26,322 nucleotides of DNA from a virus (IMGVR_UViG_3300034980_000230:1-26322); one strand, 5' to 3'; shown: positions 6,127 to 24,906, counted from the stretch's first letter. Notes: a model not told the origin generated them from the sequence alone. Program-made: numbers and translations.

Positions 6127-6152
6127 TTTTCTCTCCATTGGCGTCTTGCGCC

Positions 6153-9708: not shown

Positions 9709-9743
9709 AAAAAAAATGGGGGAGCGCCCGTAAGCACTCCCCC
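9709..9743 (-). terminator. Strong intrinsic terminator after the capsid gene
   Basis: On the minus strand GGGGGAGTGC-TTACGG-GCGCTCCCCC forms a roughly 10-bp stem with one mismatch/wobble and is followed by ATTTTTTTT. It lies 24 bases past the stop of the major capsid gene and before the 163-aa ORF. It would reduce transcription of the connector, sugar and tail genes relative to the capsid gene. All elements of a rho-independent terminator are present. Confidence 0.88.
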
Positions 9744-9766
9744 AAGACCCATAGAAAGGGTTTAGA

Positions 9767-10840: not shown

Positions 10841-10860
10841 GATGGTTAATCCTCCGGGGC

Positions 10861-11466
10861 TTAGTTGAAATCAGGGTTGTGAATGTGACCGTCAAGAGAT
10901 CCGGCCATCAGGACGGCGCGAAGGGCCTCCTTCAGATCGTTTCGGCTTGGCAGCTTGTCGGAACCATGGACGCGCTTGTTGTAATAAAGCACATCTTCAA
11001 AATCCCGAGCCACTGCTGCGACTGCGGAACCTTCAGAGTCGGTCTCCAGAATACCGAGCATTTGCTCATCTGGATGCTTGTCCTTGGTGCGAATCTCGTC
11101 AGAGAAGCGGCGACCAGCACGGCGGGCAGGCTTTGCAGCCATGCGTGCAAGCTTTGATTCCATGGCAGCAAGACGTTCGCGGAGAGCGATTTTCTCTGCG
11201 TCCTCTTCTTGACTCTTGGCCTCTTCTGCTTCTACATCACGCTTTTGCGCGGTAGACACAAGGGCCTCAAGAGAGCGTGCAATCGCGTCCATGCGATCTT
11301 CCGGCTCTGCTGTAGCATCGTCCTGATTTGGGGTTTGTGCCTGCATTTGGCCTACAATGGCCTCAACAGAGCGTGTCAAAGCATCCACCTTCTCGTTGAG
11401 AGCGACAGTTGCCGCAATCTCTGGTGCCGTGGATGCACTATCTGTGCGTTCGACTTCGTTGCTCAT
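10861..11466 (-). CDS. Nested scaffolding protein (internal start of the protease gene)
   Basis: In-frame ATG 11466 (MSNEVERT...) is codon 575 of the 775-aa gene and has AGGAG about eight bases upstream. It would give a 201-aa protein consisting only of the helical scaffold part: two related heptad segments (ALTRSVEAIVGQM and AIARSLEALVSTAQ), then a long charged coil and an ordered C-terminus (DVLYYNKRVHGSDKLPSRND) likely to bind the capsid protein. This is the lambda C/Nu3 arrangement, in which scaffold is made in excess over protease. The ribosome site and frame are seen; independent translation is inferred. Confidence 0.6.
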   Translation of the reverse strand: MSNEVERTDSASTAPEIAATVALNEKVDALTRSVEAIVGQMQAQTPNQDDATAEPEDRMDAIARSLEALVSTAQKRDVEAEEAKSQEEDAEKIALRERLAAMESKLARMAAKPARRAGRRFSDEIRTKDKHPDEQMLGILETDSEGSAVAAVARDFEDVLYYNKRVHGSDKLPSRNDLKEALRAVLMAGSLDGHIHNPDFN

Positions 11467-13188
11467 CAGCGAGTCTCCTGTGGAATGGGCTTTTTCGGCC
11501 CGGTTATTGTCAGCGCCCAAAGCGGCACCAGCAAAATGTGTTGAACCCTTAGAGAGTACGGCATCACCGTCCTCAACTGAGTCCGTTAATCCTTCGCCCT
11601 CTTCTTTTGCGCTTTCAGCATAAAGGGCTTTTTCGTATTCGTCATGTGATCGGCACGGCATAAACGTGCCGCCCTCTCCCTCATGTGCGTAGAGCCCACA
11701 ACCAAGGGCTTCACCACGAAGCTTTGCCTTCTCTTCGTTGGTAAACTCATCATCCCCAAGAGGCTCAACGGGTCCAGTAGGGTTGTCATCCATTGGGCCG
11801 GGAGGATCTTCATAGACTGGCTCTGCTCTCATTTCAGGAGCCTTTTCGTCAGCCTTATCGTAGTATTTCTTTAGATGATTGTAAGCCTCTTTGCGCTCAT
11901 CATCTGAAATGTTTACGCCGCCTCTTGCGCCATTCACAGCGGCCATGGCTGATACGATGCCTCTCCAGATTGCAACCAGCTTGTCATCAACCATCCGAGC
12001 AATGGGAAGCTTATAAGCGCCCTTGTTGTCTTTTGGCTTATCTGAATCGTAGTAAATGTGAGCCTCGGCATATCGGGCCCAATTGTCTCCGCTATCCCCA
12101 AGGATTTCGTCGCGGGCAGTTGTGTCCCAATTCCAGTCTCTATCGTAATCAATTGGAAGGTCAGCAAAAGAAAGTATTTCTCGTTTTTCCTCTTCGTCCT
12201 TCAGGTCTTCCTCTTCGTCTTTTTTATCGTCTTCAAGATCCTCAATTTGGTCCTCATCATCCTTGATGGCACCCTCATCGTGGTCCTCTTGCTCTTCTTT
12301 GTCCTCTTCGGCACGCTCTTGCTCTTCCTCAATCTCGCCCTGTGACTCGTCCTCTTCACCAATCTCGTCTTCAGCTATGGCCTCATCTTCTCCCGCAGAC
12401 TCGTCCTCTTCATCTTTGGCGTCTTCTGCGGCATCACCATCATCCTCTTCATCTGGCTTCAGCCGGTGAGCCTCGTTTTGAGCACGAATAATCTCGTTTG
12501 TCTTACTGCGTACCATTCCAACTCCTTCCAAAAATGAATCTGGATTGCTTGGTTTGCGAGTCACGGCAAGGTGGTCAAGGTCTACTGCGTCAATGATGAT
12601 TCTCTCAATCTCTTCATCGTCTTCATCATAAATAACGCGCATGTCGGTGAACCAGCCACCAATAGACCAGCCAATCGTGTCTCCACGGCTAAGTCTTTCA
12701 ACAAGCATTTTCCCTTTATCTGTGTTTGTGTAAACAGCAGATGTGACTCTTAATACATATTCGTTTTCATCCAGAGCCTTTAGGCCGGGATGGGGGTTGA
12801 CCACCGTGCGCTGCTCAATCTCAGCGTTCATGGTGCGCCCAATCATTTGATCCCACTCGTCCTCATTATGACTTGGTACGTGGGATACGCCGCGCTGAAA
12901 CTGGCGAACCATGTCCTGCAAAGCAAGAAGCGACATTTCCGTGCCGTGCCAATCAACAGATGTGCTGCTTGCGATACCTACAACAATCTCTTGGTTTTCC
13001 TTTGCTCTGTCCTCGTCTATCTCTACCGGCTTCTCTGTTTTTTCATTTCTCACAGAGAGAGCGCCGGAAGATCCGACACTAAGCTGAACGGGGATTCTGC
13101 ACCTAACTTCACAAGAAAGACGGCCTTCCTTTCGGACTGGCGTTCCTATGACTTCTACGCCATCCAGCATTTCATTGAAATTAGGCAC
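10861..13188 (-). CDS. Prohead protease fused to acidic linker and scaffold
   Basis: 775 aa, GTG 13188. Residues about 1-235 are a prohead protease (S78-like): VPSHNEDEWDQMIGR with likely catalytic H107, and GWSIGGWFTD with likely S175, followed by DLDHLAVTRKPSNPDS. Residues about 246-335 are an extreme Glu/Asp run. Residues about 340-450 (DRDWNWDTTARDEI; KGAYKLPIARMVDDKLVAIW; NGARGGVNI; HLKKYY) are a domain often attached to phage proteases. Residues about 575-775 are a helical coiled scaffold (DALTRSVEAIVGQM; ALRERLAAMESKLARMAAKP) ending in a basic/ordered tail. It lies between portal and capsid. A separate internal start makes the scaffold alone. The protease would cut the scaffold and capsid parts during maturation. 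Confidence 0.85.
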   Translation of the reverse strand: MPNFNEMLDGVEVIGTPVRKEGRLSCEVRCRIPVQLSVGSSGALSVRNEKTEKPVEIDEDRAKENQEIVVGIASSTSVDWHGTEMSLLALQDMVRQFQRGVSHVPSHNEDEWDQMIGRTMNAEIEQRTVVNPHPGLKALDENEYVLRVTSAVYTNTDKGKMLVERLSRGDTIGWSIGGWFTDMRVIYDEDDEEIERIIIDAVDLDHLAVTRKPSNPDSFLEGVGMVRSKTNEIIRAQNEAHRLKPDEEDDGDAAEDAKDEEDESAGEDEAIAEDEIGEEDESQGEIEEEQERAEEDKEEQEDHDEGAIKDDEDQIEDLEDDKKDEEEDLKDEEEKREILSFADLPIDYDRDWNWDTTARDEILGDSGDNWARYAEAHIYYDSDKPKDNKGAYKLPIARMVDDKLVAIWRGIVSAMAAVNGARGGVNISDDERKEAYNHLKKYYDKADEKAPEMRAEPVYEDPPGPMDDNPTGPVEPLGDDEFTNEEKAKLRGEALGCGLYAHEGEGGTFMPCRSHDEYEKALYAESAKEEGEGLTDSVEDGDAVLSKGSTHFAGAALGADNNRAEKAHSTGDSLMSNEVERTDSASTAPEIAATVALNEKVDALTRSVEAIVGQMQAQTPNQDDATAEPEDRMDAIARSLEALVSTAQKRDVEAEEAKSQEEDAEKIALRERLAAMESKLARMAAKPARRAGRRFSDEIRTKDKHPDEQMLGILETDSEGSAVAAVARDFEDVLYYNKRVHGSDKLPSRNDLKEALRAVLMAGSLDGHIHNPDFN

Positions 13189-13330: not shown

Positions 13331-14899
13331 TTAATCCTCTATTGCTACGTCTTCATTTTCTGGAAGCTTATCTTCAGGGGATTCCGCTGGAAAGTCTGAT
13401 TCATCATCTTCTGCGTCATCATCAAGCTTCTGGTCAATCTCATCACCGCCATCCATGCTTGAGCCGCTAAGGGCATCCAAGAATTCTGAAAGGTCTTCAA
13501 CGGGAACGGGGCCGTAGCCGGGAGTATCTGTTCTTGGCACATCACCGCCAACAACGGGCATCATTCCCAACTCTGAACGAACCTCATTGATCGTCATTAC
13601 GCCACGGCGCATATAAACATCGTGCCTGTTTGCTACCTTTAGTTGGTCCTCTGGTGAGTGGGTCTTGCTTCTATCAAATGTGAATTTGATCTTGCCTTGG
13701 AAATCCTCTGGAATCATCCGTGGAATAATCTCAGAGTTAAACTTTGCCTGAATCAACTCAAGGATTGGCGTGATTAGGTGCGAAGATGAAACGTCCATTT
13801 GAACCATAGCGGTAGCGCGAGGCATCTGGTCTGTTGCTCCCATTTCTACCGGCATGACACCAAACACGCGCCAAATCATGCGGCGCATATTCTCTACCAC
13901 CTCAAGCATGGTCAATTCTTTAGGTGTTTTACGCAACTCAACCCATTTTGCATCAACAGAATTTGGGTTTGGGCTTGCAATGACTCTGATTTTGTAGTCT
14001 TTGCCCCTCATTGATTGAAGGTCTGCCTTGGCCCTATCAGCAGCCATGCCGCCCAACCCGCCAAGAACAAGAAGGCCGGGGGGTATCTCATCAGCATCCA
14101 TCGTCATCATTGCCATTTCAGACGATAAAAGAAGCGTAATCGCCTCAGTTATGACGGTTTCCATTAGCGGAATACCTACGGGCGACCTTGAGTTAGTGAA
14201 AAGCTTAAAAACACTAATCTGATAGGGTGTAAATTCAGCAACAACAGACTCTTCGCTGCCGTGTTCCGGCCCTAAAACGGGAAAACTGGTCCCAATAAGC
14301 CGCTCTGTATCTTTCCTGTAGCCAACCGTATACCCCTCTTCATCAATAAAGGGGGAAAATTCAGAGCCAAGCCAAGGCACTAACTCCTTAATTTCATAGG
14401 GATCTTCGAGAATTGCGTCATAACTTCCCACCAATTCAAGCACACCAGAGTCATAAAGCAGCAAATCTGTGACCATTTGGGTCATCATTTCTTGCCATGT
14501 CTGCCTATTATCGTTGGGAACGTCCAGAAAAAACTTCAAATCATCAGCAACTTTGGCCTGCTCTGCATACTCAGCACTGGACGGGTCGGCACTTGGCTCG
14601 ATGTTCCAGTCCCAAGTAGCAACACGCCTAACGATTGCGTCAATAGCCGACCTAATGTCAGGGGTCTTTACATATAAATCGAAGGTTTGCAGTGGGGTAA
14701 GCTGCCTACTGCTTTTATAATTCTGTAACGATGACCCGCTTGGTATTTTACCAATTGGGTATCTATTAACGGCCTGAACAAATCCTGTTCTCTTGTCAGC
14801 GGCCCTAAAGAAACCGTCTGGCCTATAGTCAGGGGCCTCTTTTTTTAAGGAAATGGCGGTTTGTGCTTGGCCCAGCACTCGCATAGGATTTTTCGGCAC
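13331..14899 (-). CDS. Portal protein
   Basis: 522 aa, with a GTG start at 14899 and GAGG five bases upstream. Features typical of portal proteins: TPDIRSAIDAIVRRVATWDWNIEPS near residue 80, a stem/wing region with YDSGVLELVGSYDA, the helix SPVGIPLMETVITEAITLLLSSEMAM, and the conserved KTPKELTMLEVVENMRRMIWRVFGVMPVEMG. The last ~60 residues are very acidic and disordered (DDDAEDDESDF). Portals form a dodecameric DNA channel at one capsid vertex and bind the terminase. It stands between terL and the protease/scaffold gene, the usual place. Length is normal. Confidence 0.88.
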   Translation of the reverse strand: MPKNPMRVLGQAQTAISLKKEAPDYRPDGFFRAADKRTGFVQAVNRYPIGKIPSGSSLQNYKSSRQLTPLQTFDLYVKTPDIRSAIDAIVRRVATWDWNIEPSADPSSAEYAEQAKVADDLKFFLDVPNDNRQTWQEMMTQMVTDLLLYDSGVLELVGSYDAILEDPYEIKELVPWLGSEFSPFIDEEGYTVGYRKDTERLIGTSFPVLGPEHGSEESVVAEFTPYQISVFKLFTNSRSPVGIPLMETVITEAITLLLSSEMAMMTMDADEIPPGLLVLGGLGGMAADRAKADLQSMRGKDYKIRVIASPNPNSVDAKWVELRKTPKELTMLEVVENMRRMIWRVFGVMPVEMGATDQMPRATAMVQMDVSSSHLITPILELIQAKFNSEIIPRMIPEDFQGKIKFTFDRSKTHSPEDQLKVANRHDVYMRRGVMTINEVRSELGMMPVVGGDVPRTDTPGYGPVPVEDLSEFLDALSGSSMDGGDEIDQKLDDDAEDDESDFPAESPEDKLPENEDVAIED

Positions 14900-15133: not shown

Positions 15134-16813
15134 CTAATATCTTCTGCGCCGGTCTGATTGGTTTTCATCTAAAGTTAGAATGTCATAGGTGCCACCACCC
15201 TTCAATAGATCACCAGCGATTCTGTCATACGCATCAGCGAAACGATAGTGGTCAGCTTTGCTGCCCTCTTCCCACACATAGCGCGTTCCGGTTTGGTTCA
15301 AAACCCTTTGTGATGCACGCATTTGCCCAACAAATCCTTCCACCGCAAAAACGTCCCTTGGAAACGACCGCCTTACTGGTTGTGCTCGCAGATCATCAAG
15401 GGTTGCATCAAGAAGCTGTGTCCTGTCTATCGAACAAATGCGGTCATTCCAGTGGTATTTGCCGCCATAGGCTTCGCCGCTCACCCTTTCCGAAGGATAA
15501 AACTGTGCGAGCCAGAGTGATGTGTTTGTGTTCTGTATGTAGTAGTCTCGCAATTCTTGGGCCTTGTGTGTTTCCGGCCTCGCATCCATGACTGCAAGAT
15601 TAACGTGGAAGCGAGCAAGGATAGACTGTACGTCCTCAAACGTCTTCGCAGTGCCCACCCAAACAGCTTTGCGTATACCTTCGCCTGACTCACCCCGCTC
15701 ATGCACGCTCACCACAATGTTCAAAACAGCGCCAACATCAATGCCAGCAGACACCATCATACCTGAATACTTGTCTCCACCTGAGCCCTCGTCCATGTCA
15801 TAGTCACCAGATGCATGCTCCAAGTCTTCCAGCCTTACTGACGTTGACGCGGTTTCAAATCCAATACCCAAAACGCCATTATAGAACGCTTGAAGCTTGG
15901 ACGTATCGCCTTGAGAGATCACCCATTCGTTGACAAGCGGCCCAATTTGCTGCGAAAGCATGTCCAATCGGCTGATATGGTAGCCCCTTCGCTCAATTTC
16001 TGGTCTCTCTGCAACCCATTTTGCCCCCTTATAGTCCCGGTGAAAGAAATCGTGGCACGAAATACACTGAATTTTGGTGTCTTTTCCGTCTGGATTCCTG
16101 TCTCTTGCTACCCAATTTCCCGCATCATTTCGCTCAACTACGTTCACAAACCAGTCAATCGGCTGCATAAATGAGCAATTTGAGCACTTAAACATGAATT
16201 TTCGCATGTCTGTTTCGTCATATCTGGCACAAATCCCCACCTTTGGGAGCCTTGGGTTGCCTACCCTGAACAGTTGTGGGTGTGGGGACTCACGAACACG
16301 GTCCCAAGCCATATCAAGGTTTCGCGGGTCGCATCGGTCGTATTCGTCAATGATGAGCACATCAGCGGAAAACTCCACAAAGTTGTTCTCTGTGTTGGAG
16401 CCAAGAAACAAAATTGTTCCTTTTCCAAACTTTTTGACCCCTAAGTTGTCTACCGCCTTACCCCCTCGCATGGCCTCCTTGTGTTTTTTCTTATACGCTG
16501 GAACCGTTGCGATCAGTGGGTTGATTCGACTTTGAACAAACCTGTTTCTTACCGCACCTGATGGTAAAACGTAGGCAACAATGCGGCCCTCCCATCCCGC
16601 ACGCTCAAGGGCAAGGATAATGCTGCACTCTGTCTTGCCGGTCTGCACCGCAGACTGAATATCTGCACCGCCAATGTTGGGGAAATCTTTGTATAACTCC
16701 ACAAGGTAGAGCCTGTCTGCAAACTGCATAGGTTTGCCACGAACGCTTTGATGGTGGTTGCGGGCAATCCGCAGCATTGGGTACGAATCAATAGCAAGCT
16801 TGGCCTGTGACAT
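15134..16813 (-). CDS. terL: Terminase large subunit, GpA family
   Basis: 559 aa. The ATPase domain carries Walker A QSAVQTGKTE (residues 53-62) and Walker B VLIIDEYDR (152-160; D156, E157). A zinc-ribbon-type insertion has C210-x2-C213 and C250-x2-C253, characteristic of the lambda GpA family. The nuclease domain begins at SAGIDVGAVLNIVVSV (D359), with a second acidic motif in LAVMDARPETHKAQEL. It packages DNA into the prohead and cuts the concatemer. Its ATG overlaps the upstream stop in TAATG. It is slightly shorter than lambda GpA, lacking some N-terminal residues. All key motifs appear intact. Confidence 0.92.
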   Translation of the reverse strand: MSQAKLAIDSYPMLRIARNHHQSVRGKPMQFADRLYLVELYKDFPNIGGADIQSAVQTGKTECSIILALERAGWEGRIVAYVLPSGAVRNRFVQSRINPLIATVPAYKKKHKEAMRGGKAVDNLGVKKFGKGTILFLGSNTENNFVEFSADVLIIDEYDRCDPRNLDMAWDRVRESPHPQLFRVGNPRLPKVGICARYDETDMRKFMFKCSNCSFMQPIDWFVNVVERNDAGNWVARDRNPDGKDTKIQCISCHDFFHRDYKGAKWVAERPEIERRGYHISRLDMLSQQIGPLVNEWVISQGDTSKLQAFYNGVLGIGFETASTSVRLEDLEHASGDYDMDEGSGGDKYSGMMVSAGIDVGAVLNIVVSVHERGESGEGIRKAVWVGTAKTFEDVQSILARFHVNLAVMDARPETHKAQELRDYYIQNTNTSLWLAQFYPSERVSGEAYGGKYHWNDRICSIDRTQLLDATLDDLRAQPVRRSFPRDVFAVEGFVGQMRASQRVLNQTGTRYVWEEGSKADHYRFADAYDRIAGDLLKGGGTYDILTLDENQSDRRRRY

Positions 16814-17117: not shown

Positions 17118-17465
17118 TCACGCAGCGCCGTAGTAATGCTCATCAGCCTCTTCCACTGGAACGCCGCGCATAACTGCATAGCGATGACCGGGATGACGAG
17201 GCACCCCACCCACAGCGGTATCGCGGGGAACCCAAAGCTGACCATAGTGGCTGCACTCTTGCGAGATACGCTCACGGTAGATTTCGCGAGCCTCTTGGAT
17301 GCTGACACGCTTGCATGTTTCGCGCTCCATTTCATCGTAGCCGCAAAAGGTTGCCCAGATGTCTACAGTCTTGCCGTCAGGGTTTACCTGAAACGCAAGG
17401 CCAGTAGACTGAGCCTCATCTTCGTGAGCGACGTTAGCGAGCCAGAATGTTTTTGATGTAGCCAT
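17118..17465 (-). CDS. Unrecognised 115-aa protein with own repressible promoter
   Basis: The start is ATG 17465 (MATSKTFWLANV), supported by AAAGGAGAGAGA a few bases upstream; an upstream ATG would lie within the promoter. The sequence has a beta-rich N-half (STGLAFQVNPDGKTVDIWAT) and a helical, charged C-half (CKRVSIQEAREIYRERISQE), then conserved-looking CSHYGQLWVPRDT and a Tyr-rich end. It is not a recognised family. A sigma70-like promoter with an embedded inverted repeat lies directly upstream. There is no terminator after it, so its transcript may run on into the terminase genes. Confidence 0.65.
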   Translation of the reverse strand: MATSKTFWLANVAHEDEAQSTGLAFQVNPDGKTVDIWATFCGYDEMERETCKRVSIQEAREIYRERISQECSHYGQLWVPRDTAVGGVPRHPGHRYAVMRGVPVEEADEHYYGAA

Positions 17466-17491
17466 GATTTCTCTCTCCTTTCTATACTTAC

Positions 17492-17519
17492 AGTATAACC
17501 CACGGAGGGTTACGGTCAA
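17492..17519 (-). promoter_or_regulatory. Promoter with embedded 17-bp operator (copy 1)
   Basis: Minus strand: TTGACC, 16 bases, TATACT. Between and overlapping the boxes is the inverted repeat TAACCC-TCCGT-GGGTTA (17496-17512). A second dyad, TATAC-N5-GTATA, overlaps the -10 box. A GGAGAGAG ribosome site and the ATG of the 115-aa gene follow. The cassette is nearly identical to copy 2. Confidence 0.8.
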
Positions 17520-17534
17520 GGTGAAAAAGCAACT

Positions 17535-17765
17535 TTATTTTAGAACACTGAGATCGTAGTATTCGCCACTCCGCACCTTTTCCTCAAACTTTTGAATGAG
17601 GTCATGGATCTCTTCCCGCAGATCAGAAGCAGCGTTGTGCTTCTGGCTTCCCGCGCCAAATGCGTGCTTCTCATCAGATGGCGAAAGCACCATCTTCTCA
17701 AAAAGATTCGCGATGTCTTCAGTCAGGCTTTCCATTTCTGTAGCGTCAGTGATTCCGTTTTGCAT
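17535..17765 (-). CDS. Small helical acidic protein
   Basis: 76 aa, ATG 17765 with GGAGAGAGA upstream. Helical and charged throughout (ESLTEDIANLFEKMVLSPSDE; ASDLREEIHDLIQKFEEKVRSG), with an ending YYDLSVLK. It has its own promoter/operator immediately upstream (17791-17818). It stops just before the next promoter cassette, so it can be expressed as a single gene. Not recognised; its size and control fit small early phage proteins that modify the host, which is inference only. Confidence 0.6.
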   Translation of the reverse strand: MQNGITDATEMESLTEDIANLFEKMVLSPSDEKHAFGAGSQKHNAASDLREEIHDLIQKFEEKVRSGEYYDLSVLK

Positions 17766-17790
17766 TGTTCTCTCTCCTTTCTATACTTAC

Positions 17791-17818
17791 AGTATAACCC
17801 AAGATGGATTACTGTCAA
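17791..17818 (-). promoter_or_regulatory. Promoter with embedded operator (copy 2)
   Basis: Minus strand: TTGACA, 16 bases, TATACT, with TAATCC-ATCTT-GGGTTA (17795-17811) between the boxes and TATAC-N5-GTATA over the -10. The -35 box overlaps the last codon and stop of the upstream 66-aa gene. GGAGAGAG and the 76-aa gene follow. Confidence 0.8.
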
Positions 17819-18015
17819 CAAGAAGATGGAAAAAACTTTATTTTTTTTATTAGACTGTCGATTTTGTCTTGAAGGTCGTTGTATTCAGCGACAGCGCGGG
17901 GGTATCTGTCAGGCCAGTAATCATGCACATAAACATTCATCAGCTTTTCTTGTTTATCTGCTTGCTTGTGCAGGGTGCTCAGTTGAGCCCTCATCGACTC
18001 AAGGCTATTCGCCAT
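17815..18015 (-). CDS. Small coiled-coil protein
   Basis: 66 aa, ATG 18015 with GGAGAG upstream. The sequence is a helix (ESMRAQLSTLHKQADKQEKL), a short Tyr/Trp/Pro turn (VYVHDYWPDRYPRAVAEY), then a second helix (NDLQDKIDSLIKKIKFF), as in a helical hairpin. Its end overlaps the -35 box of the next promoter. It follows the methyltransferase gene closely, so they are probably co-transcribed. Function unknown. Confidence 0.6.
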   Translation of the reverse strand: MANSLESMRAQLSTLHKQADKQEKLMNVYVHDYWPDRYPRAVAEYNDLQDKIDSLIKKIKFFPSSC

Positions 18016-18024
18016 GATCTCTCC

Positions 18025-18573
18025 TTATTTCATCCTCAACTCAACGTCAGATTGAACCTCATCACCCCAACAAGACCACCCGTCTGCCTTTTGGCGGGCA
18101 AACAACTCGACTTTACTTTGATTTGGGAACATTTCATCTATTCTGCACCGCACCTCATCCGGTTTTTGGGAGTGTTCACGCCGCATACTGGACACCAATT
18201 GGCGTATGTTTCGCGCCCCACGGGGCTGTGGAATCTTCCCACGCTTGCCGATTATGCACAATTCGCACTGACTCATGGTGTAAAAGCCGGGGTTTACCCG
18301 CTGTTTGTCCCATACAAAGCCCACAGTCGCCCACTGGAAGCCCCAAGCCTTGAGTAAATCAATGCCTTGGTCAAGATGAGGGTTGGTTACCCACAGGAAA
18401 AGCAGGCAGTCTTTGGCTGCAATGCTATCCATGTCCAGATTTTTAAGGTCATTAAGGGTCAATGTAGTGTAGTGGTTCGCCGCTGACCCTGTGTCTTTGG
18501 AGTTTGCCCCAGCATGCTGCTTCTGGCCTTTGTAATCCCAAGGTGGGTCAGCATAGATAATATCAAATTTCAT
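18025..18573 (-). CDS. MT-A70-type adenine N6-methyltransferase
   Basis: 182 aa, near the usual size of small phage MT-A70 enzymes. The catalytic motif DPPW is at residues 9-12 (IIYADPPWDYKG). LLFLWVTNPHLDQGIDLLKAWGF and VGFVWDKQR, a C-terminal VELFARQKADGWSCWGDEV, and RGARNIRQLVSS complete the family pattern. It would transfer a methyl group from S-adenosylmethionine to the N6 of adenine in DNA (RNA is possible). No target-recognition domain or partner restriction gene is seen, so it is an orphan enzyme. Its ATG overlaps the 733-aa gene's stop (TAATG). Protection of phage DNA from host restriction is the usual role. Confidence 0.85.
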   Translation of the reverse strand: MKFDIIYADPPWDYKGQKQHAGANSKDTGSAANHYTTLTLNDLKNLDMDSIAAKDCLLFLWVTNPHLDQGIDLLKAWGFQWATVGFVWDKQRVNPGFYTMSQCELCIIGKRGKIPQPRGARNIRQLVSSMRREHSQKPDEVRCRIDEMFPNQSKVELFARQKADGWSCWGDEVQSDVELRMK

Positions 18574-20774
18574 TAAACTGCCTTTAGTGGGTCACTCAAT
18601 TCATATTCAAGGCTATTACCTATGACCTCAGTGCTGGTGACGCGAACCAGAGGGACAACCTTCTTACCTTCTGGACCTTTCTCATGCTGCGGAATCCTGA
18701 TGGTCCTGATAGCCACCCAATCAATCCCGTCAGGGTGAGGGATTCGTCTACGGTTGAACCGCCTTGCATCACGCGGGCTAACGTCCTTCCTGTCCGTGTA
18801 GATGGTATAGCCACGGCCCTCAAGCAACGAACGCTCATCTGTTGATATGGGCAGCTTGCCGCGCCTAATGTAGCATCGGTCATGCTCCCTACAGTCAACC
18901 CTGTGGTCAAGCTTCCACTTAGGCAGCAGCCCTGCTGACCCACCATCCCCATAGCCAGTGGACGGCATCGTAACACCACCACTCATCTGAACACGGCTAT
19001 ACTTTTTGAGGGACACGTTAATGCCTTCCCTTGCCTTCAACCTTCGCTTCTGTCGCTTTTGTGAGCCTGTAAACTCTACCTGCACAACGCTGTGGTCATC
19101 AATGGCCTGCATCAGATGATTAAGTGGTGATGAAAGGTCTGAATCCTGCTGAAACCAATTGTTGTGCCTTAAACCTGATTCTCTCTGTAAGCCATGGTTG
19201 TCAGGCACCAAAGATGCATAGTTATGCATCCATTCTGCAAGGCCATCAAGATACATTGGGACAAGTATAGGTATCCGTAAAAAGTCCATATCATTTGGAC
19301 AGTCTTTATAGCTAATGACATACCCCGTGTATGCTCCAAAAATAACATTTCCGCTGAAATCTGGAACAGCCACATTTGTCATCTTGAAATCAACATCGCT
19401 GGAAAACAAGAACCCCGTGGCGTAGATAAGGTCCAACTGAACCATCTGACCGTCTGGCGAAACCGCTGATGTTGGAGACATAAACTGCCTAACCTGCGAT
19501 TGCTGGTTTCTCGCTCTTTGGTAAATCAGCATTTCTTCTGGTTTCTCCAGAGCAACAAACGTATTGCTAAATGGTGTTTGCTCTGGAAATCCAATGTTTG
19601 AATTCCTCTGTAACCTTCTACGTGAAAGCGTTGAAAAAGCCTTTTCTTTACCTTTAAGCGACCTCATAAAAGCAGCATCAGCCGGACCAATATCCTTTGT
19701 AGCGCACATCGGAAATTGCATTGGATAGTCATGTGTGTCCAGATGAAGGTGCCTGATTCTCCATAAGGTTCTGCACTCCGAAAACCACCATGACGGAAAA
19801 GCAAAGGGCTTCGCCTTTTTGAGCAAATCCATCACATATTGATGAGCCTGCTTTTGTCCGTCCTCCGGGTATAGGTTGCCGCAATCTCTCGGGTCACCGG
19901 GTTGAACATTTGTTGGAAAGATGTTTGTATTCCGCTCTTTTGTCCTCAATGCTGAAAACAAAATATCGGCGCAGTCCATTGACTCTACATCACTCTTTGC
20001 TGCATTGAAACGCCTTTGGAGAACGGGGTCATTGAATACAGTGTGCCTGCCGCCCCCATAATCCTTGTTAGCTTTATACTGTGATTCGGTCTTCGCGCCC
20101 TTGAAGGATCGGTTTCGTTCAGCTTCCTCTTCCAAGACCTGCTGATAATCTTCATAGGTCGCAGGACCGCCATGAGAAATCAAGTCATCAAGAGAAGCTG
20201 CCTTTGGCGCATAGTCTTTAAGAGATAAATCCTCTGCGCTTACAATGCCTTGATGGTAGCCGTCCTTGAATGACTGCTCTTTCTCGCTGCCCCACTTATC
20301 TTCTGTCTCCGTATCTCCCACCAACTCCATAGCCGCAACCATCGAATCAACATCGCCGCTATCCATTGCGTCATTGAGCAATTCAACCTGCTCTTGCTTG
20401 TCCTTTATCGCCCCCCTTAGAAGGGAAAATTCAGCCTCTATGCTTTCGGGTGTAGCCTTAGAGTCTATGGCGCTTAGGGCCTCCAAGACTTCTTTCTCAG
20501 TCATAGATGAGCCTGCGATGGCCTTCATGTTCGCCTCAGATTCAGAAAGCATGCTGTGAAGGTCTTTCAACTCAACCAGTCGTGACTCTGCAAGGCGCTC
20601 AAGTTTTGAGATTAGAGCAAGGCGTCGAATCTGCCTACCTTTAGCAGTAAAGCCGTCATCAAGGTCATACTCACTTTTGTTTTTCCTGCCCGCCTTTCTT
20701 GCTATTTTGCGGGCACTTTGTGGCTCTTTTCCCGCCCGAAGACCGCCCAGCTTTCTTTTCTTCATCTTTCCCAC
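18573..20774 (-). CDS. Unrecognised 733-aa protein
   Basis: The start is GTG 20774, placed five bases after GGAGAGAG. The first ~40 residues are very basic (MGKMKKRKLGGLRAGKEPQS, ARKIARKAGRKNKSE), then a long helical/coiled segment runs to about 150. The middle (about 240-480) has aromatic-rich stretches such as PSWWFSECRTLWRIRHLHLD and DYPMQFPMCATKDIG, and a beta-rich section (LIYATGFLFSSDVDFKMTNV). The C-terminus is basic with LDHRVDCREHDRCYIRRGKL (a His/Cys cluster that might bind zinc) and DARRFNRRRIPHPDGIDWVAI. No known family is recognised. The promoter upstream carries the shared operator, so it is probably an early or repressor-controlled gene that reads into the methyltransferase. 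Confidence 0.8.
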   Translation of the reverse strand: MGKMKKRKLGGLRAGKEPQSARKIARKAGRKNKSEYDLDDGFTAKGRQIRRLALISKLERLAESRLVELKDLHSMLSESEANMKAIAGSSMTEKEVLEALSAIDSKATPESIEAEFSLLRGAIKDKQEQVELLNDAMDSGDVDSMVAAMELVGDTETEDKWGSEKEQSFKDGYHQGIVSAEDLSLKDYAPKAASLDDLISHGGPATYEDYQQVLEEEAERNRSFKGAKTESQYKANKDYGGGRHTVFNDPVLQRRFNAAKSDVESMDCADILFSALRTKERNTNIFPTNVQPGDPRDCGNLYPEDGQKQAHQYVMDLLKKAKPFAFPSWWFSECRTLWRIRHLHLDTHDYPMQFPMCATKDIGPADAAFMRSLKGKEKAFSTLSRRRLQRNSNIGFPEQTPFSNTFVALEKPEEMLIYQRARNQQSQVRQFMSPTSAVSPDGQMVQLDLIYATGFLFSSDVDFKMTNVAVPDFSGNVIFGAYTGYVISYKDCPNDMDFLRIPILVPMYLDGLAEWMHNYASLVPDNHGLQRESGLRHNNWFQQDSDLSSPLNHLMQAIDDHSVVQVEFTGSQKRQKRRLKAREGINVSLKKYSRVQMSGGVTMPSTGYGDGGSAGLLPKWKLDHRVDCREHDRCYIRRGKLPISTDERSLLEGRGYTIYTDRKDVSPRDARRFNRRRIPHPDGIDWVAIRTIRIPQHEKGPEGKKVVPLVRVTSTEVIGNSLEYELSDPLKAV

Positions 20775-20800
20775 GACACTCTCTCCTTTGTCTTGGTTTT

Positions 20801-20828
20801 ACTATAACCTCCTTCGGGTTATTAGCAA
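20801..20828 (-). promoter_or_regulatory. Promoter with embedded operator (copy 3)
   Basis: Minus strand: TTGCTA, 16 bases, TATAGT, with TAACCC-GAAGG-AGGTTA (20805-20821) between the boxes. GGAGAGAG and the GTG start of the 733-aa gene follow. The spacing is the same 16 bases as in copies 1, 2, 5 and 7. Just upstream (about 20840-20858) is an AT-rich hairpin (AATAAAA ... TTTTATT). Confidence 0.7.
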
Positions 20829-20876
20829 TAGGTTTCTTAAATAAAATCGTTTTTATTGGGAATTGAATCCTCCCGC

Positions 20877-21071
20877 TCACTTCTCAACGATGACGTATGT
20901 AGGCTGCGGGGTAAGCAACCCAAAGGTCAGTAGGTCCAACTCAGTATGGAGTGGCCCCGGATTTTCGTACACTGCATACGTTCCCGGCTGTTGCGGCACT
21001 GTATACATGGCTGGCACTGGTTGTCCCGGCCTAATTGGTGCCAAGCACCCTAAAATTATCACGAAAAGCAT
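20877..21071 (-). CDS. Small lipoprotein-like protein
   Basis: 64 aa, ATG 21071 with GGGAGAGG upstream, starting inside the 3' end of the preceding gene (13-base overlap). The N-terminus MLFVIILGCLAP is a short hydrophobic signal followed by a lipobox-like ILGC, so Cys9 may be lipidated. The rest is Pro/Tyr-rich (PIRPGQPVPAMYTVPQQPGT). Small Pro-rich lipoproteins in phages are often outer-membrane spanins (Rz1-like), but no partner inner-membrane spanin, holin or endolysin is recognised nearby. The signal is very short, so this is tentative. Confidence 0.5.
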   Translation of the reverse strand: MLFVIILGCLAPIRPGQPVPAMYTVPQQPGTYAVYENPGPLHTELDLLTFGLLTPQPTYVIVEK

Positions 21072-21370
21072 GTACCTCTCCCTCTTATTTCACTCATGTC
21101 TAAAAGCTGAGTGTGTCTATCAAAAATCTCAAACGAGCAATCAACCCAAACGCTCACCGGGTCCATTGAATCCTTCATCTTCACCATCCACAGGCTCCTG
21201 TATTCAGAGTCATTATGAACCATGTGAAAAACAACAATGTGGACCCCTTCAGGGTCAATCTTTGGATGGATGGCGTCTATGTCAACAGCCCTATTCCTGT
21301 CCTGAGAGTCATAAGCCATCGCCATAAATCTCTTAGTGGACGCCGTAAGAATAGTATTGGAGTCAGACAT
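21059..21370 (-). CDS. Unrecognised 103-aa protein
   Basis: The start chosen is ATG 21370 (MSDSNTILTAS), with GAGG six bases upstream. An in-frame ATG at 21436 would add 22 basic residues but has no good ribosome site. Mixed alpha/beta sequence: DIDAIHPKIDPEGVHIVVFHM, then SEYRSLWMVKMKDSMDP and VSVWVDCSFEIFDRHT. No known family. It overlaps the lipoprotein-like gene and follows the 325-aa gene after a 149-bp gap, so it is probably in the same transcript. Confidence 0.55.
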   Translation of the reverse strand: MSDSNTILTASTKRFMAMAYDSQDRNRAVDIDAIHPKIDPEGVHIVVFHMVHNDSEYRSLWMVKMKDSMDPVSVWVDCSFEIFDRHTQLLDMSEIRGRGTCFS

Positions 21371-21465
21371 CTTCCACCTCATACCAATGTTACCCGCTAC
21401 GCGGGTTTTTGTAATGATGGGTCTTTGACGTTTCATGGTGTGTCTCGGAAAAGTGGCCCCCCGCC

Positions 21466-21483
21466 CCGGTTGGAAACAACCGG
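21466..21483. other. Perfect 7-bp hairpin in intergenic gap
   Basis: CCGGTTG-GAAA-CAACCGG on the plus strand; the GAAA loop is a GNRA tetraloop if the plus strand is transcribed, and TTTC if the minus strand is. It sits in the 149-bp gap between the 325-aa and 103-aa genes. There is no T-run on either side, so it is not a standard terminator. A second hairpin (ACCCGC-TAC-GCGGGT followed by T5 on the plus strand) lies near 21391-21410. Confidence 0.5.
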
Positions 21484-21519
21484 TAGAGATTGAGAGAAAA
21501 AGACGGGAGGCCGGGTAAA

Positions 21520-22497
21520 TCAAGTGCTTTCCCCATACGCTCGCAAGAGCAAAAGGGCAGCGACTACGCAAGCCTCTGAGGATATATGCCCCTTCGTGGC
21601 TCTGCAAGCTTCTGTGAAGACCGCAGCCTCAAAGCTGCCACGGCAAAGGCCAGTGTGTGCCACGGCATCCATGATGGAACGAAACTTCTTAATCCAAACA
21701 TCATCAGAGTACCGCAAATCAGTGTTCGCAAACTGCATCAAAAAGTCATGCATGAGAGTGAAGGCTGATGTTGATGTCATGTCTCTCAAGAGAAGACCAA
21801 GACCAATAGTCAAATCAGCTTTCGTCTTGAATCGTGCAGATGAAAACTTTTCAAACATAGCCATCTGAACCGTGTTGTACCGCGTCTGCTGGTGTGACAC
21901 ATGATAAGGCAGCGTGGCGTCCATCGCGTTGTAGTCGCCCTCAAGCATCCACCCGTCAGGGGTCTTCATTGCCTGCATCCTGTACTGTGTTGCCTGATGC
22001 CGTCTTTCAAAGGAATACACAGGGTAATACTCACCCTTCCGGCCACAAACCTTGGACCACCCAACAGTCTTTGGGGCAAGGACGCTAACAGCGCACATCT
22101 TTTTGTTTGACGCAGCACTGGCCATGTATGAAGCAAACTGAAACGCCTCATCCTTTGTCGGAAAACCATTTGACCAGCGGTCACCTTTATTCATCCCAAC
22201 GTGCTTGGCCACATCTAAGGGCAGCATATCGTCATCTTCTCGCTCAATATCAGGCTGGTTCAAAACCTCAGAATGAAGCGGAACCTTAACGCTAACAAAG
22301 TAATGCGAACGTCTGCCGTTATTGGTGACCGTAAAAAGGTGGCCCCTCTTCCCGGTGGCTTCCCACTGCTTCTGAGTGTAATACTGGCTGGGTTCAACTC
22401 TGCTGAATTGTAGTGGCTTGACTCCCCTCCACAGCCCAACGGCTGCGGTATAGTCATTACAAACAATATCTAAATATGCTTCTGGGTTGTGTTCCAT
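21520..22497 (-). CDS. Unrecognised 325-aa protein
   Basis: ATG 22497 with GGAGAGAGAG upstream. It begins MEHNPEAYLDIVCNDYTAAV and contains beta-rich segments (GHLFTVTNNGRRSHYFVSVKVP), a central YYPVYSFERRHQATQYRMQAM, and a helical C-terminal third (FTLMHDFLMQFANTDLRYSD; CVVAALLLLRAYGEST). No catalytic motif is seen and the family is not recognised. It is the first gene of a leftward operon; one copy of the shared inverted repeat (22519-22535) lies just upstream. It faces a plus-strand gene across a divergent regulatory region. Confidence 0.7.
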   Translation of the reverse strand: MEHNPEAYLDIVCNDYTAAVGLWRGVKPLQFSRVEPSQYYTQKQWEATGKRGHLFTVTNNGRRSHYFVSVKVPLHSEVLNQPDIEREDDDMLPLDVAKHVGMNKGDRWSNGFPTKDEAFQFASYMASAASNKKMCAVSVLAPKTVGWSKVCGRKGEYYPVYSFERRHQATQYRMQAMKTPDGWMLEGDYNAMDATLPYHVSHQQTRYNTVQMAMFEKFSSARFKTKADLTIGLGLLLRDMTSTSAFTLMHDFLMQFANTDLRYSDDVWIKKFRSIMDAVAHTGLCRGSFEAAVFTEACRATKGHISSEACVVAALLLLRAYGEST

Positions 22498-22518
22498 TTC
22501 TCTCTCTCCTAATGCCTC

Positions 22519-22535
22519 TTACCCATATAGGGTAA
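22519..22535. promoter_or_regulatory. Operator, perfect inverted repeat (copy 4)
   Basis: TTACCC-ATATA-GGGTAA with perfect 6-bp arms, 22 bases upstream of the 325-aa gene start. Unlike the other copies it is not flanked by good -35/-10 boxes in the standard positions, so it may be an operator without its own strong promoter, or part of a weak one. A related half (GTAACCCC) follows at about 22540. Confidence 0.65.
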
Positions 22536-22589
22536 TCCCGTAACCCCCACCTAAAACTAACGTCGGACACATTATGTCCTTTTTTATCC

Positions 22590-22617
22590 TTGACACCAAT
22601 CCATCAGGGGTTATACT
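22590..22617 (+). promoter_or_regulatory. Promoter with embedded operator, rightward (copy 5)
   Basis: Plus strand: TTGACA, 16 bases, TATACT, with CAATCC-ATCAG-GGGTTA (22597-22613) between the boxes and TATAC-N5-GTATA over the -10. GGGAGAG and the ATG of the 47-aa gene follow. This is the clearest plus-strand promoter of the window. Confidence 0.85.
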
Positions 22618-22641
22618 GTATGTATAAAGAGGGAGAGAACA

Positions 22642-22785
22642 ATGGCAAAGCCTAAGAAAAAGAATGAAATCAAACGCCGCAACTGGATTGCGGTAGCCGC
22701 TCACTTTCGTAGTGGTGCCGGTAGTCACAAGGACCGCAAGAAGGCCGCAAACAAGAAGGCGTGCCGTGGGCAGGCAAAATGGTAG
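22642..22785 (+). CDS. Small very basic phage protein
   Basis: 47 aa on the plus strand, ATG 22642, with GGGAGAG in front and a full promoter/operator upstream. It begins MAKPKKKNEIKRRNWIAVAA and ends with a Lys/Arg-rich segment (GSHKDRKKAANKKACRGQ). Similar short basic proteins with 'RNWxAxxxxx...GxHKDRKKA.K...RG' occur in many phages; their function is unknown to me, and nucleic-acid binding is a guess from charge. It is the only plus-strand gene that I consider firmly supported. Confidence 0.75.
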   Translation: MAKPKKKNEIKRRNWIAVAAHFRSGAGSHKDRKKAANKKACRGQAKW

Positions 22786-22858
22786 CTACTTGACGAGATA
22801 AATCCATTTATGGACCAATCTTCTTAATCTGAAAACCTAAGATGCACCTGTGGCAAAT

Positions 22859-22899
22859 TTTCTAACTAAGCAAAATTTCTAATTAAGTATACTTAGTTA
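22859..22899. repeat. Iteron-like cluster of TAAYTAAG
   Basis: TTTCTAACTAAG (22859-22870) and TTTCTAATTAAG (22876-22887) are direct repeats 17 bases apart, followed by CTTAGTTA (22892-22899), an inverted third copy. A 12-bp palindrome TAAGTATACTTA spans the second and third copies. The cluster lies in the 257-bp gene-free interval 22786-23042 between two convergent genes. The rest of that interval has short GC and AT dyads and no ORF that I can support. Confidence 0.65.
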
Positions 22900-23002
22900 C
22901 TTTGTCTTTCATGGTGTTCCTGACAGGTCAACCCACCCACCCTCACGTACTAACAGTGGCGTCAAGAGGACAGCAACAAGATTGTCGGCATACAAAATTA
23001 TT

Positions 23003-23014
23003 CCCTTTTAAGGG
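23003..23014 (-). terminator. Weak possible terminator after the rmlD-like gene
   Basis: On the minus strand, CCCTTAAAAGGG folds into a 4-5 bp stem and is followed by AATAATTTTG. It lies about 30 bases past the stop of the reductase gene. The T-run is interrupted and the stem short. Confidence 0.25.
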
Positions 23015-23042
23015 GGGTAGCGGCGATAGAGTGGTGCGCCGA

Positions 23043-23783
23043 TTAGGTCAAACTTGACCACCTCAAATTTTCTTTGCCGTTGCGGTAACTAAAGAAGGTG
23101 CTGTCTTTCGGGGCTGAGTATCCAACAAGGGCCTTCATCTGTTCCGGGGTATCCACCTTGTTCTGCAATGCTGGATGGTCAGGAAATCGTTTTTTAAGTA
23201 AATCGAATGGTGTGACCGGAATGTCAGGCCCTATCTCATGGATCTGTGGAAGGGACTGGTCAAGTATTGCCTCCACTAAAGGAGGGACAGCCTCATTGAC
23301 CCACCACCTGTTTGATTTGCTGTACGTGTTGACGAATGACCACTTGCTTGCTTGGTCTTCAGTGGTAAAGGCCACCCTTACAATCCGCCCACCTTCACGC
23401 ATTACGGCCTGTTCAGCGCGATACTTTGAGTGAGCATAGAACCCACCGCCTTCTCCACGTAAAATGGGAATTACATAATCTGTGGAAATGTAGACAAACG
23501 GAACGCCATGAACCTTGGCCGCTTTCGCTGTGTTCAATGCAGTAGCGTAGGTATCAGCATGGCACTTTGCCCGCTCAATCTGAGCCTTTGCCACATCAGT
23601 GTATGCCGCACACCCAACAATAAGGCTGTAACGGCCACCCTGAATGGCCGCATTTGACTGAACAGCAGACGCCCAATCAACTTGGAGCCTTGTCGGTGTA
23701 TCTACAAAATAAGAGGATTCGATAAACTTCTCTTTCAGGAGTTTTCCAAGCCTGCCGTTTCCGCCTGTAATGAGTACTTTCAT
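23043..23783 (-). CDS. rmlD: dTDP-4-dehydrorhamnose reductase-like enzyme (RmlD-type)
   Basis: 246 aa from ATG 23783 (MKVLITGGNGRLGK); a longer in-frame start would add 29 residues overlapping a tiny upstream gene. Features: nucleotide-binding GGNGRLG (7-13), CAAYTDV (about 58-64), STDYV (S100-V104) and YAHSK with Y116 and K120. This is the SDR reductase pattern of RmlD, which reduces dTDP-4-dehydrorhamnose to dTDP-rhamnose. It is shorter than typical (about 290), with a truncated or divergent C-terminal substrate domain, so another 4-keto-sugar reductase is possible. It is separate from the rmlB-like gene by about 15 kb and lies in the regulated region. Confidence 0.75.
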   Translation of the reverse strand: MKVLITGGNGRLGKLLKEKFIESSYFVDTPTRLQVDWASAVQSNAAIQGGRYSLIVGCAAYTDVAKAQIERAKCHADTYATALNTAKAAKVHGVPFVYISTDYVIPILRGEGGGFYAHSKYRAEQAVMREGGRIVRVAFTTEDQASKWSFVNTYSKSNRWWVNEAVPPLVEAILDQSLPQIHEIGPDIPVTPFDLLKKRFPDHPALQNKVDTPEQMKALVGYSAPKDSTFFSYRNGKENLRWSSLT

Positions 23784-23791
23784 ACCTATGT

Positions 23792-23893
23792 TTATATCTT
23801 CATAGCCATATAAAGGCAGAAGAAAACTACCAATCCGCCCACAATTGTCTCCGTCCATTCTTTGACGCACTTGTCCACATCTTCATCACTCAC
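23792..23893 (-). CDS. Possible 33-aa membrane peptide
   Basis: GTG 23893 with GGAGG five bases upstream; an ATG at 23905 would add four residues. The peptide begins MSDEDVDKCVKEWTE and ends in a hydrophobic segment IVGGLVVFFCLYMAMKI, long enough for one membrane span. It ends nine bases before the reductase start and would be co-transcribed with it. Very short; no homolog known to me. Confidence 0.35.
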   Translation of the reverse strand: MSDEDVDKCVKEWTETIVGGLVVFFCLYMAMKI

Positions 23894-23914
23894 ACAGGCC
23901 TCCATCTTGCCAAT

Positions 23915-24271
23915 TTATGAAACTTCTAAACACCAGCCGTTCACAATCTGAATATCGGAAATGTCGCCACCCAAATTAAGGGTGATACGACAACGCACGC
24001 CCCAATGACCGCAGGGGCTTTGAGTTATTTTACGGCCAGTCATAGCTATCTGGCAATAAGTATATCCTCCGTGTTTGGACCCAAGCGCATGAGTGGCTGT
24101 AAACGCGCCGTCCCACTGTTTAGCGGAGTCGCTGGGGGTATACACAACCCTAAACTCATCCCACGGATACCCTCGACCGCTCTCCGCAGTCGGTATCCTC
24201 CACACAACGCGGAACCCCGCGCTCTTAAAATCGTCTGTTTCGATTACCTTCCAGTCGGGCGTTCCTGACAT
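23915..24271 (-). CDS. Unrecognised 118-aa protein
   Basis: ATG 24271 (MSGTPDWKVIETDDFKSAGF), with GGGAG upstream; an ATG seven codons earlier lies over the ribosome site. The sequence is beta-rich with conserved-looking Trp and Gly (RVVWRIPTAESGRGYPWDEF; AFTATHALGSKHGGYTYCQI; GHWGVRCRITLNLGGDISDI). No known family. It has its own promoter with operator immediately upstream and is first in a leftward operon leading to the reductase. Confidence 0.65.
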   Translation of the reverse strand: MSGTPDWKVIETDDFKSAGFRVVWRIPTAESGRGYPWDEFRVVYTPSDSAKQWDGAFTATHALGSKHGGYTYCQIAMTGRKITQSPCGHWGVRCRITLNLGGDISDIQIVNGWCLEVS

Positions 24272-24294
24272 TGCTTCTCCCTTTCTATACATAT

Positions 24295-24324
24295 ATAGTA
24301 ACCCATCACGGGTAACCGTGTCAA
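24295..24324 (-). promoter_or_regulatory. Promoter with embedded operator (copy 6)
   Basis: Minus strand: TTGACA, 18 bases, TACTAT (alternatively TTACTA with 17), with TTACCC-GTGAT-GGGTTA (24299-24315 region) inside. A GTATAGAAAGGGAGAAG leader and the 118-aa gene follow. Spacing differs slightly from the 16-base copies. Confidence 0.7.
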
Positions 24325-24427
24325 CAACTAAATTAAAAAAAATTTAGAAAATGGCCCTCCCCTATAGTGACCGATATGAAAAGCCACCATGAGGGGAAGG
24401 CACCCCGTTACCGCAATACTTCTGCAC

Positions 24428-24769
24428 CTACGGGTAAAAGGTGGTAAAGGAGTGAGCCAGTGTATACGAAAGGGGGGAAACAAATAAAACCCCTACCAAC
24501 GGCTCATGCCCGGTTGCGATTGCCCGGTTCCCATGTCTCAAGTCAATGCACAATAAACCTCTCTCATTATCTAAGAGGACCAACTGAGTAAAATTACTCA
24601 TTGGGTCTGAAAAAGTGGGGTTTTTAATGGACCCCAAACCATATAGACCAAAGCTTGCCTTATTGAAGCTTGATGGCTTCGGCACTGAAATGTCTATCAA
24701 AACACAGCATGTAGAGGGATTCAGCAGGTTTACTGGAGTGATGCTTTCCGTGGAAAGGGTATGTCGCAT
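24428..24769 (-). CDS. Doubtful 113-aa ORF
   Basis: A minus-strand ORF in an otherwise gene-poor region (24,325-25,021). ATG 24769 has AGAGG three bases upstream, which is too close. The translation is Ser/Thr/Leu-rich with few charged residues. By my count only about 22% of codons start with G, low for a real protein. It overlaps plus-strand small ORFs that are a little better supported. It may be a shadow. Confidence 0.2.
   Translation of the reverse strand: MRHTLSTESITPVNLLNPSTCCVLIDISVPKPSSFNKASFGLYGLGSIKNPTFSDPMSNFTQLVLLDNERGLLCIDLRHGNRAIATGHEPLVGVLFVSPLSYTLAHSFTTFYP
24460..24591 (+). CDS. Doubtful 43-aa plus-strand ORF
   Basis: GTG 24460 with a good AAAGGAG site eight bases upstream. 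It follows a 23-aa ORF (24376-24447) whose stop overlaps the AAAGGAG. The translation begins VYTKGGKQIKPLPTAHARLR and shows no recognisable fold; first-position G is low. Real only if the region is a plus-strand leader/mini-operon. Confidence 0.2.
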   Translation: MYTKGGKQIKPLPTAHARLRLPGSHVSSQCTINLSHYLRGPTE

Positions 24770-24782
24770 GGGCCTCTGGTAA
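24627..24782 (+). CDS. Possible 51-aa plus-strand protein
   Basis: ATG 24627, with AGTGGGG a few bases upstream. Translation begins MDPKPYRPKLALLKLDGFGT and continues with an amphipathic pattern (EMSIKTQHVEGFSRFTGVML), ending VERVCRMGLW. About 29% of codons begin with G by my count, closer to real coding than the opposite-strand ORF. A GGGGT/ACCCC hairpin could cover its start codon. Family unknown. Of the competing ORFs in this stretch it is the most protein-like. Confidence 0.35.
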   Translation: MDPKPYRPKLALLKLDGFGTEMSIKTQHVEGFSRFTGVMLSVERVCRMGLW

Positions 24783-24878
24783 TTTCGTATCAGTGTGTTC
24801 TGTTTTCGTCCTCTGTTAGTGTAGTGATTGGCTTACGCACCCAATCGGGGATGACTCTGAGCGTTCCGTTGCTCTCAA

Positions 24879-24906
24879 TATACTCTTACCCCAGCAGGGT
24901 TATAAT
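24879..24906 (+). promoter_or_regulatory. Operator with perfect -10 box (copy 7)
   Basis: Plus strand: TATACT, 16 bases, TATAAT, with TTACCC-CAGCA-GGGTTA (24886-24902). The -10 is perfect but the -35 is poor. No plus-strand gene follows within the window. On the minus strand TTATAA-17-TATATT is an alternative reading. The rest of 24783-25021 is AT-rich with A/T runs and the tandem dyads described separately; I see no gene in it. Confidence 0.5.

Follow-up and report, generated by a model that had tools for sequence, protein, structure and literature searches.

A 17-bp operator-like dyad repeated at early promoters of an uncultured bacterial virus, and a candidate XRE-type regulator in its relatives

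The DNA analysed here, called the window throughout, is a linear virus record of 26,322 nt from an uncultured bacterial virus. Minus-strand packaging and virion genes fill its left two thirds (Table 1), and the right third is non-structural, with an MT-A70 methyltransferase, a 733-aa protein, an RmlD-like protein and numerous small open reading frames (ORFs). The gene model was made by hand; its intergenic share is about 8%. A strong intrinsic terminator (9717-9744, minus strand; a 12-bp stem and eight T) adjoins the 3' side of the likely major capsid gene. Two minus-strand genes within the virion block appear, from a reading of the sequence with no profile search, to encode a glycosyltransferase-like protein of 961 aa (3253-6138) and an NDP-sugar epimerase-like protein (7296-8306). 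Searches of a phage collection with the window DNA and with the 733-aa protein gave no relatives, and the matches listed from that collection for the terminase large subunit (TerL) reach at most about 26% identity.

Table 1. Features of the window and of the related contig L070 (16 and 18 are the nucleotides between the -35 and -10 hexamers)
Feature	Position	Strand	Remarks
Likely major capsid gene	9767-10840	-	window
Likely capsid genes	9767-13188	-	assigned by order and size
Portal	13331-14899	-	window
TerL	15134-16813	-	window
115-aa protein (MATSKTFWLAN...)	17118-17465	-	first gene behind copy 1; ORF, start codon by reading
Promoter with copy 1, TTGACC-16-TATACT	17492-17519	-	dyad 17496-17512; orthologous promoter at L005 4577
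76-aa protein	17535-17765	-	behind copy 2; ORF
Promoter with copy 2, TTGACA-16-TATACT	17791-17818	-	dyad 17795-17811
MT-A70 methyltransferase	18025-18573	-	downstream of 733-aa gene
733-aa protein	18573-20774	-	behind copy 3; ORF
Promoter with copy 3, TTGCTA-16-TATAGT	20801-20828	-	dyad 20805-20821; orthologous site at L005 1646
325-aa protein	21520-22497	-	behind copy 4; ORF
Copy 4, perfect dyad TTACCCTATATGGGTAA	22519-22535	-	adjoins ribosome site of 21520-22497; related site at L005 123
Promoter with copy 5, TTGACA-16-TATACT	22590-22617	+	dyad 22597-22613; divergent from copy 4
Basic 47-aa protein (MAKPKKKNEIKRRNW...)	22642-22785	+	behind copy 5; sequence reading
118-aa protein	23915-24271	-	behind copy 6; ORF; its L005 and L006 homologues also follow operator promoters
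Promoter with copy 6, TTGACA-18-TACTAT	24295-24324	-	dyad 24299-24315
Copy 7, TAACCCTGCTGGGGTAA	24886-24902	-	good promoter hexamers on neither strand
Operator TTACCCAAACAGGGTAA	L070 2348		precedes sigma-like and HTH pair
Sigma70-region-2-like gene	L070 2387-2896		behind operator 2348
Candidate HTH gene, 102 aa	L070 2906-3214		behind sigma-like gene

Seven copies of a 17-bp dyad, T(A/T)A(C/T)CC-N5-GGGT(A/T)A, lie in the window and start at 17496, 17795, 20805, 22519, 22597, 24299 and 24886 (copies 1-7 below). An earlier reading made from the DNA alone (the sequence-only reading) had located seven dyads with one mismatch allowed per arm, and it was right on both points: the dyad is exact at 17496, 22519, 24299 and 24886, has one mismatch at 17795 and 20805 and has two at 22597. 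When up to two mismatches are allowed, there are nine matches in the window, compared with a mean of 1.94 and a maximum of 6 in shuffled sequence. The matrix scan that had been proposed in the same reading was run with a position matrix whose training set comprised 15 sites in other contigs, from related phages, and none in the window. The seven top-scoring positions in the window are precisely the seven dyads (14.4-22.5 bits), followed by a position with 13.5 bits at 214; random windows of the same dinucleotide composition have a mean best score of 11.8 bits and a mean of 6.7 at rank seven. The shuffles and this independent ranking rule out a chance origin of the dyads. All seven are intergenic in the gene model and lie to the right of 17.4 kb, outside the virion genes, so the claim that no copy occurs in those genes is borne out. 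In 22 aligned sites, the conserved arms reach 1.7 bits per position and the unconstrained centre has mostly 0.05-0.25 bits; the spacing of the dyad to both TTGAC and the -10 is constant.

Sigma-70 hexamers of the form TTGNNN-16-TATANT flank the dyad at copies 1, 2, 3 and 5; at copy 6 the spacing is 18 nt. The right arm, GGGTTA, extends into the -10 (GGGT followed by TATACT). The sequence-only reading had placed copies 1, 2, 3, 5 and 7 between a -35 and a -10 with 16-nt spacing, which holds for the first four and fails for copy 7, where the minus strand has TTGCAT-16-TAAGAG, with a poor -10, and the plus strand has a poor -35. It had also omitted copy 6, though that copy is flanked by suitable hexamers (Table 1). 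The evidence favours counting copy 6 and leaving out copy 7, for which the promoter claim is weak because of the poor -10. The -10 is poor at copy 4 as well; copies 4 and 7 make up a second subclass, with a 34-nt repeat in common (D13) and no good -10. Behind copy 7, an open frame (24800-24886, minus strand; ...EYIESNGTLRVIPDWVRKPITTLTEDENRTH) starts at a stop inside the operator and has no clear ribosome site or ATG.

Copies 1 and 2 had been described as having almost the entire cassette in common, ribosome site included, and they do share a cassette of 64 nt with 83% identity. Directly behind the operator in each (17481-17495 and 17780-17794, minus strand) is the stretch TATACTGTAAGTATA, itself a short dyad, located where transcription is expected to start; in close relatives, this stretch is conserved as TATACTRTAWGTATA.

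The contigs closest by TerL are L005 (87%) and L006 (81%). In both, the operator cassette precedes homologous genes, with the arms kept and the central bases changed; the L005 homologue of the 115-aa protein is 80% identical and stands behind the same promoter. A pattern scan of viral contigs led to another relative with the same promoter-operator, L070 (19,961 nt), which has eight strong copies (251, 2348, 3767, 4236, 4460, 19212, 19334 and 19897) plus weaker ones. Its genes are for replication and recombination: a DnaB/primase-type protein, RecU, a helicase, a PD-(D/E)XK nuclease and an AAA protein. Two contigs homologous to L070 (L072 and L073) have sample numbers in their names that assign them to the two metagenomes of L005 and L006, and it is therefore likely that contigs of the L070 and window types represent different portions of a single kind of phage. 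No contig was found to join the window genes to the regulator gene described below, and in the closest group the link consists of the shared metagenomes and the shared promoter.

Several other sites and genes were met. A weaker operator-like dyad (L070:6768, L072:2402 and L073:661) precedes the same gene, for a protein of 127-131 aa, in three contigs, and the start codon is farther away there than at the other promoters. Early operons contain a gene pair for a MoxR-type ATPase and a VWA protein (L079:7583-10460, L092:4716-7581 and L070:1-1866), each gene with its own operator wherever the start is visible. One perfect promoter-like copy in a prophage-like contig, L049, was set aside as chance because it is single and no related genes were seen; contigs L050-L055, which match the promoter half-pattern, were rejected as the left arm is absent.

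Host operator sites can occur in phage promoters, and the dyads might be bound by a host regulator, the phage using or sensing the host regulon. Among the species genomes of 84,980 bacteria and archaea (GTDB), however, the promoter-operator pattern occurs just three times; one match falls within an ABC-transporter gene, and no second copy accompanies any of the three in the stretch fetched. Operator abundance instead tracks a phage gene (see below), and we consider control by the host very improbable.

That the repressor gene is not visible in the window had already been stated in the sequence-only reading, and an HTH_3-like profile search of this fragment agrees: the regulator gene is not there. 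The same reading had suggested looking for a helix-turn-helix (HTH) gene next to a further copy of the operator. Such a gene is present in L070, behind the operator at 2348 and a sigma-like gene (Table 1), and it is the sole HTH_3-like match in that contig; its homologue is likewise the sole match in the 86-kb record G005. The L070 protein scores under the Pfam cut-offs (HTH_31, E 1.4e-4 and 22.6 bits with a cut-off of 27; HTH_3, 17.4 with a cut-off of 23), its homologues score more weakly still, and a search of solved structures with its sequence gave no useful match. Predicted models made from one and from two sequences have the same four helices and hairpin (mean pLDDT 73). Compared with known structures, the models resemble SinR, HipB, restriction C-proteins and P22 c2, though the scores are modest (Foldseek probability 0.9-1.0, E 0.02-0.1), and the best VIA match has Z 7.4 and rmsd 2.9 over 74 residues. 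The protein probably, not certainly, belongs to the XRE family; the assignment is only probable because of the sequence scores below the Pfam cut-offs.

The four HTH proteins share Q-x-x-SQW-...-G-x-D-x-R-x-PPW around the predicted recognition helix. In each of the four records with both genes, the sigma-like gene adjoins the HTH gene, and the order sigma-like/HTH/RecU is constant in L070 and in two distant records, G011 and G012. A scan with the VWA protein for further sigma/HTH neighbourhoods returned only a contig that was already known.

The distant records, of up to 86 kb, were reached through portal homologues with 35-49% identity, and in them the dyad takes the form TAAC-N9-GTTA. G005 carries the portal plus homologues of the VWA, sigma-like and HTH genes; since both gene sets are present, the structural and regulatory parts are joined on one record in the wider group. 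It contains 20 of the dyads, where 0 to 0.2 would be expected per piece of 20 kb or less, and 16 of the 20 lie between 69.9 and 79.2 kb. In L082 (G005 75.3-79.3 kb), the operator run is preceded by conserved AAGT(A/G)GAGACT, not TTGACA, which suggests a second promoter class. A profile search for the HTH protein in 16 more records found it in G011 and G012 only. Those two have 12 and 10 dyads, respectively, and the 14 HTH-negative records have 0-2 each. With G005 included, HTH presence is associated with a dyad array (Fisher p = 0.0015), a value confounded by record length and shared descent; the three HTH-positives are the longest records, yet two HTH-negatives of 59-60 kb have zero dyads.

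A TTG stands 7-9 nt upstream of the dyad at 11 of the 12 sites in G011 and 8 of the 10 in G012 (background 2% and 10%), and an operator lies ahead of the VWA gene in L070 (251), G005 (9120) and G011 (32227). The outer TAAC/GTTA bases are common to the lineages, and the inner bases differ. Together, the HTH sequence motif and the conserved outer bases fit a common ancestry of protein and site, without being proof of it. In the window and in the arrays of L070, G005, G011 and G012, one motif is found at many early promoters and is rare in the virion module.

The HTH protein might nevertheless be a bystander, with Cro/CI-like control exerted by another, unrecognised phage protein; the HTH call by sequence is weak, and in the closest group only L070 joins operator genes and HTH. 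We find this hard to credit, given a co-occurrence that is perfect in the records tested, a gene order that is fixed in L070, G011 and G012 and a conserved recognition-helix region.

A second question is the sign of control. The poor -10s at copies 4 and 7 count against shut-off and are what one would expect if an activator or an unusual sigma factor were at work. If the dyads were activator sites, or part of promoters for the phage sigma-like protein, the genes would be turned on; the GAGACT that replaces TTGACA at several G005 sites and the constant pairing of sigma-like and HTH genes would suit this. Most sites, however, have near-consensus sigma-70 hexamers, a dyad that fills the spacer is in the usual position for a steric block, and a sigma factor has no need of two-fold symmetry. 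We judge activation to be quite unlikely.

As for lifestyle, 15 records, some of them 75-86 kb long, yielded no tyrosine integrase (PF00589), the seven records searched for a serine recombinase (PF00239) yielded none either, and a portal scan of GTDB genomes revealed no prophage relatives. A virulent lifestyle is likely, with the proviso that records may be incomplete. Because neither kind of recombinase was found, the data agree better with a timed shut-off than with silencing in a lysogen. The same operators could serve a prophage repressor, which would confer immunity and hold the early operons silent in a lysogen, as in phiC31, P1 and SPbeta. Dispersed early-promoter operators are best known in temperate phages, and the window and most records are fragments, which could miss integration or partition genes. 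The negative searches speak against a prophage repressor, as does the nature of the only HTH candidate, which is small and encoded in an operon with its own operator (L070), features that suit a Cro-like role better than a CI-like one. Lysogenic control therefore seems unlikely to us.

Our preferred explanation, which we hold to be probable, is that the seven sites are operators of one phage-encoded regulator, an XRE/Cro-like dimer that excludes sigma-70 RNA polymerase at many early promoters. The sequence-only reading had likewise proposed one repressor for many early promoters; the single regulator acting through a promoter-embedded operator is well supported by the conservation in relatives and the co-occurrence with the XRE-HTH gene, and prophage-type silencing is not supported, as no integrase was found in the records searched. 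As to the identity of the regulator, its binding and the sign and timing of control, we infer the following. A small XRE/Cro-like HTH dimer would occupy each 17-bp site and sterically exclude RNA polymerase, and numerous short early and replication operons would be turned off together. Since the sigma/HTH operon in L070 has its own operator, the regulator would be made early from that operon and would then repress the early promoters, that of its own operon among them. The sigma-like protein may redirect transcription to late genes; a joint early-off, late-on switch through this neighbour is a guess.

For a virulent lineage with members in metagenomes only, the fuller picture would be of a lambda-Cro-like protein that acts at ten to twenty promoter-embedded operators and is encoded with its own sigma-like factor, one operon closing the early genes and opening the late ones, while the inner operator bases and the HTH co-diverge and the architecture stays. 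We offer this picture tentatively and with some doubt. In a virulent group, operator logic of the lambda type would serve early shut-off at many promoters, not lysogeny. A likely master switch can be named for this broad group of uncultured phages, which lacks a closely related sequenced isolate, and one 102-aa protein and one 17-bp site offer a simple binding assay. Direct tests of how operator specificity evolves would also be possible with the diverged protein-operator pairs of the group.

Several known systems can be compared with this arrangement. In phage lambda, OL1 and OR1 lie in PL and PR as 17-bp dyads with 6-bp arms and a 5-bp centre, in the -35/-10 spacer and with the right arm overlapping the -10, and are bound by CI and Cro. 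The present sites have the same dyad geometry and promoter position, as symmetric dyads of about 17 bp between the -35 and -10 at copies 1, 2, 3, 5 and 6 and at most of the relatives' sites, and the candidate regulator is probably also of the XRE-type HTH kind. In lambda, however, three operators are clustered at each of two promoters, whereas here single operators of a different sequence (TAAYCC/GGGTTA) are spread over many promoters. The CIR operators of phiC31 and the C1 operators of P1 are dispersed at early promoters of one temperate phage genome; the layout is the same, with other sequences and other repressor families, and the phages are temperate.

In SPbeta, MrpR, a protein with a tyrosine-recombinase fold, keeps lysogeny through a 15-bp element (SPBRE) in many phage promoters (PMC10516654). 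One element, many promoters and one master repressor are the points of likeness, but the present candidate is a small protein, probably of the XRE family, and the records searched yielded no integrase. The stoperators of cluster A mycobacteriophages are 13-bp asymmetric sites, bound by a monomer, oriented with transcription and in many cases inside transcription units (PMC9283540, PMC6550527). The stoperator comparison made in the sequence-only reading is apt for a dispersed-operator regulon, with many sites and one regulator, and not for the sites themselves, which are excluded from that class by their symmetry: they are two-fold symmetric, 17 bp long, mostly promoter-embedded and lambda-like in their place in the spacer. 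The nearest early phage XRE regulator met in the literature search is TgrL of phiCbK, which is made early and represses most of its direct host targets; the sites described in the available part of that account are in the host chromosome, and an array of phage operators is not described there (PMC10688885). An identical arrangement in lytic phages was not met in this literature search of limited scope, which is weak evidence of absence. The system has the dispersed-operator logic of the temperate phages above and the geometry of lambda, both already known, and the lineage in which they are combined here is an unstudied one.
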